NCBI RefSeq assembly: GCF_032813545.1
Contig: NZ_CP136520.1
Span: 1,482,001 to 1,546,000, forward strand
Direction of reading: 5' to 3'
DNA: 64,000 bases
Source of the DNA: Nodosilinea sp. E11
GTDB lineage: Bacteria; Cyanobacteriota; Cyanobacteriia; Phormidesmidales; Phormidesmidaceae
The position numbers and the translations under genes were made by a program. The first letter of the stretch is position 1; each line of letters begins with the position of its first letter. Of the stretch, positions 21,411 through 24,808 are shown piece by piece. A model generated the notes under the pieces. That model ran no database searches. It was not told the origin of the DNA and saw only the letters and a program-made list of their open reading frames with translations.

Positions 21411-21742
21411 GGTTATAGAGCATAATGGTCGCCGATGCGTTCACGAAGTGTCTCAGAATGAGAATTGCAGATCTGCTGAATTGTGGCTTGGGTGAGCATA
21501 TCAGTGGGCTTTGCTCGGGGTTGTAACGGTTCACCTGCAATCTGCTCTGTGGCTAGGCTTTAGTACAGGCATCTGCGTGAATGATCGCAGCCACGGCAGG
21601 GCGGGCACTGATTACTGTGGGAGAAGGGGCGATCGCCCCAATACAACCCGCTGAACTGCTCTGGTTTCAAGAAAGATTGGACTAACTAGAGCAGCTCAAG
21701 TTTAATGGTGGGCATTGCCCACCCTACTAACTCCTAACTGGC
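21284..21742. other. Gene-poor stretch with decayed frames
   Basis: Contains the HEPN-like fragment, a short plus-strand frame ending in TVGEGAIAPIQPAELLWF (about 21594-21686, stop after it) that also looks like the tail of a lost small gene, and a GGTGGGCA palindrome at its right end. Nothing here is intact. It borders the RAYT island and may be a site where accessory genes come and go. Confidence 0.5.
21707..21723. repeat. GGTGGGCA-type palindromic repeat, copy 4
   Basis: GGTGGGCA-T-TGCCCACC followed by CTAC, matching the 12482 copy in core and right flank. Confidence 0.8.
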
Positions 21743-21991
21743 CTAATCATCACTCTTCAGCACTTCGCCTAAATAGAGTTGCACAAACTCTTCAGCAGCC
21801 GCATGACTTAGGGATTTCAGCGCTTTGACGATATCTAGCAACGTCTCCGCTGTCGGGTCTCGCATTTCGTGAACCCACCGATAGACGTTAGTACGCTCTA
21901 CGCCCAATGTCTTGGCAAGACTGTACTGGCTAACGTCGTACTTCTCTAAAACGTGCTTGAGCACCTGACCCGCTTTACCCATAAGCCCCAT
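21743..21991 (-). CDS. XRE-family helix-turn-helix regulator (small)
   Basis: 82 aa. A Cro/C1-type helix-turn-helix occupies residues about 10-65: VLEKYDVSQYSLAKTLGVER followed by TNVYRWVHEMRDPTAETLLD, including the usual Q-x3-A-x3-G-V and the Y-R/W recognition helix. It has no partner domain. Such proteins often act as antitoxins or repressors next to a toxin gene; the only candidate nearby is the decayed HEPN fragment. Start is ATG 21991 or the in-frame ATG at 21982. No clear Shine-Dalgarno sequence. Confidence 0.75.
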   Translation of the reverse strand: MGLMGKAGQVLKHVLEKYDVSQYSLAKTLGVERTNVYRWVHEMRDPTAETLLDIVKALKSLSHAAAEEFVQLYLGEVLKSDD

Positions 21992-22104
21992 GGTGTCAGA
22001 GCTTCATAGCTTCGTAAACACATGCCTAATAGTTGACGAATACCTAATGGATAACTATAGTTGTTTGTATTCCTAATGGTTCACGCATTTAAGAAGTACT
22101 CGTC

Positions 22105-22350
22105 ATGCCACAAGCATTTATTCCCTCAACCCTGGCAAACCCCGCCTTACAAGTCACCATCGAGCCTGCCGCCGAGCCGGGGCGGGAGGTCATTCGCATC
22201 TTGGTCATCGGCAGCGCCCACGGCGTCGATCGCATCGTCCACGAACTCTACCGCCTCGGCTTTGCCGAAGTGCGCGAGTGGAGCAAACCCCAGCCCACCG
22301 GGCGCATCAACGAAATCATGCGCGTCCTCACCCGCTACATCCTGGCGTAG
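22105..22350 (+). CDS. Small conserved protein of unknown function, intact copy A
   Basis: 81 aa, no signal or membrane segment. Predicted alternating strand and helix: VIRILVIGSAHGVDRIVHEL and LGFAEVREWSKPQPTGRINE, ending MRVLTRY. I do not recognise a named family. A nearly identical second copy of its 3' half lies at 23216-23447 on the far side of the RAYT element, so this gene was duplicated. Its TAG stop codon (22348-22350) is inside the 29-bp terminal inverted repeat of that element, which suggests that the element landed at or captured the gene end. Confidence 0.7.
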   Translation: MPQAFIPSTLANPALQVTIEPAAEPGREVIRILVIGSAHGVDRIVHELYRLGFAEVREWSKPQPTGRINEIMRVLTRYILA

Positions 22351-22449
22351 GGTGCATTCGCGCAGCAATGCACCATCTTCACTCGCGCAGCAATGCACCA
22401 TCTTCATTCGCGCAGCAATGCACCATCTTCATTCGCGCAGCAATGCACC
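22351..22449. repeat. Left REP array: full palindrome plus three 25-bp units
   Basis: A complete palindrome (22351-22374) is followed by three direct units of 25 bases (22375-22399, 22400-22424, 22425-22449), each ATCTTCATTC + GCGCAGCAATGCACC with one base change. The array reads as the reverse complement of the right array. Confidence 0.85.
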
Positions 22450-22468
22450 ACCGAGAGCATCTCCCTCG

Positions 22469-22963
22469 TCATTCATTCTGCTCCCACAAATACCGATGCA
22501 CAGTCGAAAACACCCAATCCGTCGGGCATTCCACTAATCCATGCCTCACCGGGTTGTAATGAACATACTCACAATGGCTCACAAAATCCCGCTCGTCTCG
22601 AATGCAATGCTCCCAATATCGCCGCTGCCATAGATTTCCCTCCCGCCGCCGCTCACCCGATACGGTCTTCTCCGACGGCAGTGCCAATTCTTGGCCACAA
22701 GCCTTCGTCACCATCAGCTTGATTAGCCGCCACCGTTTGGCATAATCGCAGTCCCCCTCTGGCAACGTCCAAATGCAGTGGAAGTGATCAGGTAAAAGTA
22801 CAAAGGCATCAATCGCGAAGGGGTGCTTTCGCCGTACCGCAATAATGGCCTGGCGTAGGGATTGTCTACCTAAATCGGTGCAAAGCCAGGGGTACCGTTG
22901 ATAGGTCACGTGGGTGAAGAAATAGCTGCCGCCGGGTCGGTAAAGGCGTCGGTAATTGGGCAT
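22469..22963 (-). CDS. REP-associated tyrosine transposase (RAYT, Y1_Tnp/IS200-like)
   Basis: 164 aa from the ATG at 22963 (MPNYRRLYRPGG). HUH endonuclease signature PDHFHCIW with the H-x-H pair, the helix with YVHYNPVRHGLV that carries the nucleophilic tyrosine, and the RAYT-typical WQRRYWEHCIRDE segment are all intact. RAYTs nick single-stranded REP palindromes and are domesticated relatives of IS200/IS605 transposases. No frameshift is seen. It is flanked on both sides by inverted arrays of its presumed target palindrome. An upstream in-frame ATG at 22981 would add six residues. Confidence 0.92.
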   Translation of the reverse strand: MPNYRRLYRPGGSYFFTHVTYQRYPWLCTDLGRQSLRQAIIAVRRKHPFAIDAFVLLPDHFHCIWTLPEGDCDYAKRWRLIKLMVTKACGQELALPSEKTVSGERRREGNLWQRRYWEHCIRDERDFVSHCEYVHYNPVRHGLVECPTDWVFSTVHRYLWEQNE

Positions 22964-23011
22964 GGAACCGAGAGGATGCACTTTCTTTAAAGTGCCCGGT
23001 TTTGGGATAGT

Positions 23012-23206
23012 GCTTACGAGGGAGAGATTCTTGGTGCATTGCTGCGCGAAGCTTACGAGGGGGAGATTCTTGGTGCATTGCTGCGCGAAGCTTACGAGGG
23101 AGAGATTCTTGGTGCATTGCTGCGCGAAGCTTACGAGGGAGAGATTCTTGGTGCATTGCTGCGCGAAGCTTGCGAGGGAGAGATTCTTGGTGCATTGCTG
23201 CGCGAA
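23012..23206. repeat. Right REP array: five 39-bp tandem units
   Basis: Five exact-length 39-base units start at 23012, 23051, 23090, 23129 and 23168, each GCTTACGAGGGAGAGATTCT + TGGTGCATTGCTGCGCGAA with at most one substitution, and end in a full palindrome (23189-23212). Because 39 is a multiple of three, all frames stay open and produce repetitive peptides that should not be called as genes. Confidence 0.88.
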
Positions 23207-23215
23207 TGCACCCTA

Positions 23216-23447
23216 CGGTTAGCTGAATTTGCTGCTGATCCGGGGCGGGAGGTGATTCGCATTTTAGGTGCATTGCTGCGCCCACGGCTGCGATGGTCGA
23301 AGACCGGCCCTTAGAGGCCAACGCATCGTCCACGAACTCTACCGCCTCGGCTTTGCCGAAGTCCTCGAGGGGCGCAAACCCCAGCCCACCGGGCGCATCA
23401 ACGAAATCATGCGCGTCCTCACCCGCTACGTCTTAGTTGACCTGTAA
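23216..23447 (+). pseudogene. Decayed copy B of the small gene at 22105
   Basis: Begins with an EFAADPGREVIRIL segment equivalent to EPAAEPGREVIRIL in copy A, then an in-frame REP core (GGTGCATTGCTGCGC at 23267-23281) and about 26 extra bases that bring a TAG stop (23312-23314). The rest, RIVHELYRLGFAEVLEG to RYVLVDL and TAA, is nearly identical to copy A. It lacks a start. The palindrome core lies exactly where copy A encodes VIGSAHG, so the disruption is by repeat insertion or conversion. Confidence 0.75.
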
Positions 23448-23473
23448 CGTGGGTAAAAAAGCGCTGCTTACCC

Positions 23474-24808
23474 ATGGCCAAAAATCCAGCCAGCCCCCAG
23501 ATCGCCCCTACCCCAGCCTTTCTGCCCAGCTTTCTCAAGCTGGCAGCGGCCAACATCATCTCTAACCTGATGGTGCCCCTGGCAGCGCTGGTTGATACGG
23601 CCTTTCTCGGCCACCTCGACGACATTCGCCACCTGGGCGGGGTCGCCCTAGCCACCGTGATTTTTAATGTCGTCTACTGGAGCTTTGGCTTTTTGCGCAT
23701 GGGCACCACCGGCACCACCGCCCAGGCGCGGGGGCGGGGCGATCGCGACGAACTCTGGCTAATTTTGCTGCGCAATGGCGCGATCGCCCTTACCTTTGGC
23801 CTGCTAATTTTGCTGCTACAAATCCCCATTCGCGAACTGGGCTTTGGGCTGCTCAGCGGCGAACCGGCGGTGAGGGCAGCGGGCATAGAGTTCTACAACG
23901 CCCGCATTTGGGATGCCCCAGCGGTGCTGCTCAACCTGGTGCTGATGGGCTGGTTTTTGGGCCGCGAAAAAGGTCGCCGGGTAATTGCCCTGTCGATGGT
24001 GGGCAACGGCAGCAATGTTGTGTTCAACTACATTTTCATCAACCAGATGGGGTTGGCCAGCGCCGGGGCCGGGTGGGGCACCGCCCTGAGCCAATACCTG
24101 ACGCTGGCGGTGGGGCTGGGTCTGCTAGCCCGCGAAGGCGGTTTTCAAAACCTCTGGGCGGTGCTGCCCCAGGGCTGGAACCTCCAGGCGATCAGGGGGT
24201 TGTTTTTGCTGAACCGCGACATTTTGGTGCGCACTTTCGCCCTGGTGCTGAGCTTTGCCCTGTTTACCAACTTTAGCTCGGCCCTGGGCACCCAAACCCT
24301 GGCGGCCAATACCCTGCTGCTGCAAGTGGTAACGCTGTCGGCCTACTTTATCGACGGCATCGCCTTTGCCACCGAAAGCTTTGCGGGGCGCTACTACGGC
24401 AGTGGCGACAAAACCCACCTGCGCCGTCTGCTCACCCTTGGCGGCGGCAGCAGCATGGCTCTAGGGCTGTCGTTTGCCCTGGCTTTCGTGCTGTTCCCCG
24501 CGCCGCTGTTTGGTCTGCTGACCATTCACCAAGAGGTAATTGCGGTGGTGCAAACCTACGTGGGCTGGCTGGTACCGGTGCTGGGGTTGGGTGCGATCGC
24601 CTACATGCTTGACGGCTACTTTTTGGGCATTACCGCTGGCAAAGTTCTCCGCAATGCCACGGTGTTAGCTGCCGGGGTTGGTTTCTTGCCCCTGGCGCTG
24701 CTGGCCCAGTCTCTCGGCAGTGCTCACCTGCTGTGGCTGGCCCTGGTGGGGTTAATGGTAGCCCGTGCCCTCACCCTACTCTGGGCAGTGCCAAAATCTT
24801 TGGCCTGA
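23474..24808 (+). CDS. MATE family efflux transporter (DinF-like)
   Basis: 444 aa with 12 hydrophobic helices arranged as two homologous bundles. N-terminal ANIISNLMVPLAALVDTAFLGHL and FGFLRMGTTGTTAQARGRGD are typical of DinF-branch MATE proteins (the FLRMGTTG loop). It exports drugs or metabolites in exchange for Na+ or H+. The start is ATG 23474. Immediately before it lies a short hairpin GGGTAA / TTACCC (23451-23473) that occupies the expected Shine-Dalgarno position, so initiation may be weak or controlled. Confidence 0.9.
   Translation: MAKNPASPQIAPTPAFLPSFLKLAAANIISNLMVPLAALVDTAFLGHLDDIRHLGGVALATVIFNVVYWSFGFLRMGTTGTTAQARGRGDRDELWLILLRNGAIALTFGLLILLLQIPIRELGFGLLSGEPAVRAAGIEFYNARIWDAPAVLLNLVLMGWFLGREKGRRVIALSMVGNGSNVVFNYIFINQMGLASAGAGWGTALSQYLTLAVGLGLLAREGGFQNLWAVLPQGWNLQAIRGLFLLNRDILVRTFALVLSFALFTNFSSALGTQTLAANTLLLQVVTLSAYFIDGIAFATESFAGRYYGSGDKTHLRRLLTLGGGSSMALGLSFALAFVLFPAPLFGLLTIHQEVIAVVQTYVGWLVPVLGLGAIAYMLDGYFLGITAGKVLRNATVLAAGVGFLPLALLAQSLGSAHLLWLALVGLMVARALTLLWAVPKSLA

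Follow-up and report, generated by a model that had tools for sequence, protein, structure and literature searches.

Repetitive extragenic palindromes (REPs) have been described as a GT(A/G)G head followed by a hairpin, usually with more than 100 cognate copies per genome, and the genes for REP-associated tyrosine transposases (RAYTs) lie as a rule between two inverted REPs (PMC2817692), an arrangement called the REPtron (PMC3733652, PMC8266576). A REPIN is an inverted REP dimer with its GTAG termini outside (PMC3116915, PMC3733652); local REPIN amplification probably stems from the host replication machinery (PMC8049555), and an autonomous REP-ended element has been proposed as the REPIN ancestor by Bertels and Rainey (PMC3116915). 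IS200/IS605 elements are described as lacking terminal inverted repeats (PMC2817692), the terminal inverted repeats (TIRs) of TIRtrons are mostly unrelated to REPs (PMC3733652), and further RAYT/REP literature comprises PMC6006769 and PMC13289151. Here, we analyze a RAYT unit of 872 bp (22346-23217) in a 64,000-nucleotide stretch of the Nodosilinea sp. E11 chromosome (the window). We read it, at a probability of about one-half, as a REPtron whose RAYT moves REP pairs and, rarely, its own gene, with a preference for TAG sites and with arrays that arose as later duplications. An earlier note made from the sequence had set the locus apart from typical REP-RAYT loci, a view that the published rule of two flanking inverted REPs contradicts; by the same published norm (PMC2817692, PMC3733652), inverted REPs at both ends of a RAYT locus are nothing out of the ordinary, and the contrary idea was rejected.

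The transposase gene is intact and is accompanied by its own REPs, as the earlier note had it. Its reading frame (22469-22981, minus strand) is free of internal stops, with a conserved ATG start at 22963 and an open frame up to a GTG at 22981. The product matches NCBIfam REP_Tyr_transpos (E value of 3.4e-56, 189.2 bits, cut-off of 80), and its Pfam Y1_Tnp score is below threshold (19.7 versus a cut-off of 23). Structure comparison matched it to its nearest solved relative, Escherichia coli TnpAREP (4er8; E value of 7e-40), with the HxH motif and the tyrosine aligned; DHFH and the Y of HCEYVHYNP correspond to EHMH and VDYIYINP of 4er8, indicating that the HuH motif and the tyrosine are conserved, and we take the tyrosine within this aligned motif to be the catalytic residue. 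In 21 pairwise comparisons among seven intact RAYTs (that of the window and those of six relatives), dN/dS ranges from 0.05 to 0.10, which shows that the gene is under purifying selection. Its closest relatives in the named collection are Nodosilinea and Shackletoniella records.

The unit begins with CGTAGGGTGCATTCGCGCAGCAATGCACCA and ends with its complement. A direct sequence check gave arms of 30 nt each that are 100% complementary and 812 nt apart; the exactness of the inverted ends is thereby confirmed, and the length of 29 bp given earlier is corrected to 30 bp. As single-stranded DNA, positions 22347-22375 can form a hairpin whose stem is bulged and whose 5' GTAG stays unpaired (-8.6 kcal/mol, z of -3.9), the terminal REP folding on the plus strand at the left end and on the minus strand at the right end. 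In the left array, the GTAG and full palindrome at 22347-22375 are followed by three more half-REPs at spacings of 25, 25, and 25, each 25-bp unit being a copy of the palindrome loop plus the 3' half. The half-REP 15-mers of the right array start at 23033, 23072, 23111, 23150, and 23189 (spacing of 39), the fifth completing a palindrome, and they are oriented opposite to those on the left, so that the composition of both arrays and their opposite directions had been described correctly. Within each array the units are nearly identical, and both arrays have the appearance of local tandem duplications; the left array and most of the right one fold only a little better than shuffles do (z of -1.9 and -1.7), and an Rfam scan of 21500-23600 yielded two sub-gathering matches, neither reaching the gathering score.

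Units of this kind recur in the genus. Across 26 genomes (the window's own genome being G000), RAYTs at least 80% identical were found at twelve loci, representing eight sites in 8 genomes, when a 36-residue fragment in G006 is left out and a truncated copy in G013 is counted; G000, G011, G013, and G014 have two copies each. The sites are the window, the own-genome lepA site, the miaB site upstream of a MiaB-like gene (G011, G014, and the truncated copy of G013), the site beside recN (G011, G013, and G014), gltX (G001), and a single further site in each of G002, G016, and G023, where lepA, miaB, recN, and gltX are the presumed identities that we assigned by reading the proteins. Eight of the twelve RAYTs are full length with no internal stop; a single stop interrupts the recN-site copy of G011 and likewise the copy of G016, the lepA copy of the own genome is broken, and one G013 copy is truncated. 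Outer heads were sought within 420 bp of the RAYT: the left head GTAGGGTGCAT lies beside the gene at all twelve loci and the right head ATGCACCCTAC at 10 of 11, the exception being the own lepA copy with AAGGCACCCTAC, while no right head was found within the 420 bp searched at the truncated miaB-site copy of G013. The search for further units with matching ends, proposed in the earlier note, returned an outward GTAGGGTGCAT head at each of the twelve RAYT loci. Unit lengths vary from 616 to 1,039 bp. Outside the units, flanks are unrelated between sites (14 loci compared mutually, and the window flanks with those loci), except for the miaB and recN sites common to G011, G013, and G014 and for short P81 (see below), HTH, REP, or dispersed pieces. 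Among three RAYTs of about 60% identity that were read, two are flanked on both sides by another REP, GTAGGGTGCGTCA-like, and the third on one side; since these carry REPs of another sequence, REP and RAYT go together. The two own RAYT copies, 83% identical in DNA, are sisters in the DNA tree (support of 0.87, in trees whose support is partly low). About 150 bp immediately adjoining the left REP at the gltX site (L100 3224-3374, G001) match a stretch that occurs at other places in 24 of the 26 genomes searched, G001 itself included, as though the unit had taken a gene fragment with it.

The window unit is placed between a full copy and a decayed copy of P81, an 81-codon gene, a context absent from the earlier note. 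The MATE gene downstream has matches (E value of ≤1e-100) in 25 of the 26 genomes, at 26 loci with at least 1,446 bp of upstream DNA in 24 and 264 and 400 bp in two, and a RAYT lies upstream of it in the window genome only. The MATE site of G009 reads HTH-P81-MATE, with a single P81 and no RAYT; that of G017 reads HTH-P81, short insert, P81 remnant, and MATE, again with no RAYT. At another place, G023 has the cassette HTH-P81-REPIN-small ORF-brnT-P81 remnant, in which brnT is supported by Pfam (1.9e-27) and the adjoining small open reading frame (ORF) has no Pfam match; this ORF and the G017 insert are presumably brnA-like. What follows the P81 stop differs among these homologous cassettes: G017 lacks a REP there, G023 carries a REPIN, and the window carries the RAYT unit. 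At the own lepA site, the RAYT pseudogene is enclosed by outward GTAGGG heads, with the end of lepA on one side and that of a P81 tail on the other. Among 15 genomes with this site, G000 alone has the RAYT, and seven others have P81 convergent with lepA and no RAYT, the P81-lepA gap being about 34 bp in G022 and about 107 bp in G016. Both own-genome units abut the stop of a P81 paralogue, with the TAG coming from the REP head. The window junction reads GCG TAG GGTGC; here P81 runs directly into the first REP head, so that the stop codon of P81 comes from REP DNA, and the native end in several relatives reads GCG GAGTAG. Our survey covered a sample of 31 P81 3' ends (23 plus 8) drawn from four sources: RAYT loci, the MATE site, a search of the own genome, and the listed matches of the P81 tail. 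REP DNA occurs at the stop of 5 of these 31 ends among the matches listed (the window, the own lepA site, G009, G023, and G025, where the REP is degenerate on that side); a REP head begins four bases past the stop in G003, and the other 25 ends were counted as having no REP at or near the stop, one of them (G016, L260) having its stop within CGTAGGGT. The 3' end of P81 is a place where REPs have landed repeatedly.

Table 1. Features of the RAYT unit and its surroundings (positions of the window)
Feature	Position	Strand	Evidence or remark
RAYT, intact	22469..22963	-	Family profile, structure match, dN/dS, ORF check
Left terminal REP (GTAG foot and hairpin)	22346..22375	+	Left arm of exact 30-bp terminal inverted repeat
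Right terminal REP	23188..23217	-	Right arm of exact 30-bp terminal inverted repeat
Left array, three 25-bp half-REP units	22376..22450	+	
Right array, five 39-bp units, half-REPs pointing away from RAYT	23012..23206	+	
HTH (Cro/CI-type) gene, divergent from P81	21743..21991	-	Pfam HTH_3 1.5e-06
P81, 81-codon gene without named family; stop TAG within REP head (GCG TAGGGTGC)	22105..22350	+	
Decayed partial second P81	23226..23448	+	Without about the first 18 codons; 27-nt insertion
Exact half-REP GGTGCATTGCTGCGC within the P81 remnant	23267..23281	+	Intact copy partly similar there
MATE-family gene, site anchor in relatives	23474..24808	+	Pfam MatE 7.2e-32

Sequence comparison suggests that the whole unit changed places over evolution, long ago. 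The movement of the 872-bp unit proposed earlier is therefore retained in part: an old relocation agrees with the eight sites with like ends and with the RAYT-free state of both own sites in relatives, whereas neither a target-site duplication nor a recent near-identical copy was seen. Several observations weigh against relocation. No target-site duplication of 2 to 12 bp was present in the 11 units tested. RAYT-free MATE and lepA sites do exist in relatives, but the comparison of empty and filled sites revealed no clean empty site at miaB or recN, where similarity to RAYT-free genomes ends near the unit and other DNA follows (7 bp short of the head at miaB in G024). Of the two own RAYTs, the second is a pseudogene, and breakage or truncation affects 3 of the remaining 10 loci. 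The dS values between the window RAYT and six others (0.85 to 1.68) exceed those of MATE and LepA between the same genomes (0.48 to 0.78), and, in the comparison made for signs of horizontal transfer, values below the species level are confined to G001 versus the miaB-site copies (0.54 to 0.58; species, 0.70 to 0.89) and to the G011-G014 miaB pair (0.24 versus 0.50 to 0.60); because divergence between sites is large, any movement was not recent. At the window site, P81 is partly duplicated, with traces common to G017, so that the single P81 of G009 (an assembly 86% complete) could reflect deletion by P81-P81 recombination. By its position, the P81 tail at lepA is more probably the resident gene than one carried there, and its sequence does not decide: over 72 bases it differs at 4 from the copies that G009 and G023 have at lepA, at 6 from the P81 of the window, and at 3 from the G025 copy, and a tree of 24 sequences places it by the G025 and window copies. 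Finally, arrays as large as those of this unit were seen at none of the 11 other RAYT loci (two-unit versions exist in G002 and G001), nor do the twelve loci read contain a near-identical copy of recent date. Around recN (L102 2693-4849, L104 1889-4948, and L255-L257), differing genes fill the space up to the next conserved gene in related genomes, and the RAYT unit stands at one edge of this gene-content hot spot in three genomes.

Mapping of GGTGCATTGCTGCGC over the 6.1-Mb genome, as the earlier note had advised, showed dispersed copies, 16 of them exact: 9 in the unit, 1 just outside (23267), and 6 elsewhere; the reversed pattern, used as a control, had 0 matches in the genome. The genome contains 29 REPs with at most 1 mismatch and 61 palindromes with at most 3, four of which are in the unit (0 for the backwards control), and seven close inverted REP pairs resemble REPINs. 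REPs number 10 to 41 in the 8 genomes with a RAYT and 0 to 15 in the 18 without (Mann-Whitney P = 0.001; P = 0.0096 after subtraction of an assumed 2 to 4 flank REPs per genome and P = 0.019 when RAYT-free genomes of <90% completeness are also left out). REP abundance is thus only moderately higher where a RAYT is present, and G012, G019, and G021, with no RAYT match at all, still contain 3, 9, and 7 REPs. In a survey of 30 REP loci out of the 61 own-genome matches, 28 had a GTAG head, both window ends counted. The REP TAG closes a real gene at 4 of these 28 heads (P81, TspO, Uma2, and Roc-COR), and frames of at least 200 codons are closed by GTAG at 3 of 28 REP heads versus 4 of 516 GTAGs in the window, a weak indication that the REP TAG serves as a stop codon in general. 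The TspO-like, Uma2, and Roc-COR genes with a REP-head stop are in L023, L035, and L037 of the own genome, near position 1500. No report of REP heads as stop codons or of RAYT-unit movement was found in the titles and abstract openings of the literature searched.

The chief alternative to relocation of the unit is recombination, either between REPs or between copies of P81. According to this explanation, REPINs alone move; a REPIN settles at a P81 stop, and the RAYT enters later by homologous recombination between REPs or P81 paralogues. The three states of the homologous HTH-P81-P81' slot accord with it, a REP hairpin of about 57 bp sits at the P81 stop of G009, both own RAYT copies are at P81 stops, and near P81 copies are 77 to 95% identical in protein; however, none of the six remaining RAYT sites adjoins a P81 stop and the terminal sequence in common is just about 28 bp, and we consider this course of events possible but unlikely. 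We regard as improbable that the units are immobile, ancient REPtrons, all eight sites being ancestral, vertically inherited, and differentially lost. The between-site dS of the window RAYT above species dS and the miaB and recN sites common to three related genomes would fit such a history, but the MATE, lepA, gltX, miaB, and recN sites each have a RAYT in 1 to 3 genomes among the matches listed, and the RAYT-free P81 genes at lepA keep their native stop context, which chance loss would not restore. That the unit is a transposon in formation or a self-contained REP amplifier with functional inverted arrays, as the earlier note had suggested, is very improbable, for although the arrays are present, inverted, and internally near-identical, they fit local tandem duplication, arrays of such size do not occur at the other RAYT loci, and the REP excess is moderate.

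P81 represents a small protein family with numerous paralogues in each genome; a divergent HTH gene often accompanies it, and this divergent pair recurs in the genus. At some places P81 is duplicated in part, the copies being separated by brnT-type or REP DNA, and P81 and HTH may form a gene pair with its own mobility. The own genome has 19 P81 matches, counting P81 itself and the remnant, most of them distant; Pfam and NCBIfam searches of P81 gave no match, and PADLOC matched neither RAYT nor P81 up to an E value of 0.1 and the HTH gene only weakly. The 27-nt insertion of the window remnant is also present in the P81 remnant of the G023 cassette, and the REP half inside the remnant looks like local conversion from the neighboring REP array.

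Under the preferred reading of a REPtron that seldom carries its own gene, the RAYT would act on REP hairpins in single-stranded DNA and move short REP pairs (REPINs) or, rarely, a stretch with its own gene, the unit then being an autonomous REPIN. Sites carrying TAG would be favored, such as the P81 end, whose stop codon would then be provided by the REP head, and landing at a TAG would leave the host gene intact. The arrays would be later tandem duplications of the RAYT-proximal half-REP and spacer, most likely by replication slippage. A bolder reading, less likely than not, is that the Nodosilinea RAYT still moves as a gene inside a REPIN, as an autonomous REP-ended element like the REPIN ancestor proposed by Bertels and Rainey (PMC3116915), and that its TAG-stop preference spares the host gene. 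RAYTs have been described as domesticated, single-copy genes that mobilize REPs but not themselves; a genus with RAYT units at many sites, sometimes two per genome, is a natural test of RAYT self-carriage and bears as well on how REPINs arose, and the junction in which a REP serves as the stop codon suggests how such insertions escape selection.

Compared with the known systems, the unit resembles IS200/IS605 elements in its related Y1 HUH transposase and hairpin ends and differs from them in its exact 30-bp inverted ends. IS200/IS605 elements occur as multiple near-identical copies within a genome, whereas the own genome has one further copy of this unit, a pseudogene of 83% DNA identity. As in TIRtrons, a RAYT-like gene lies between terminal inverted repeats, but here the TIR is a dispersed REP. 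Outward GTAG heads, an inverted REP pair, and the landing place at the P81 stop are shared with REPINs, which are gene-free, whereas the window unit holds a RAYT between its heads. The REPtron is the closest: the unit has a RAYT-family Y1 transposase with HuH motif and tyrosine between two inverted, GTAG-footed hairpin REPs, the cognate REPs are dispersed, and different RAYT types go with different REPs. It departs from REPtrons in its expanded half-REP arrays; moreover, RAYTs are reported as single copy and not mobile, and two copies exist in 4 of the 8 genomes, over eight sites, although single copy is a property reported in most cases and not a definition of the family. Its 29 to 61 own-genome REPs are fewer than the high copy number reported, and since more than 100 is a usual figure and not a strict criterion, we keep the unit among the REPtrons.
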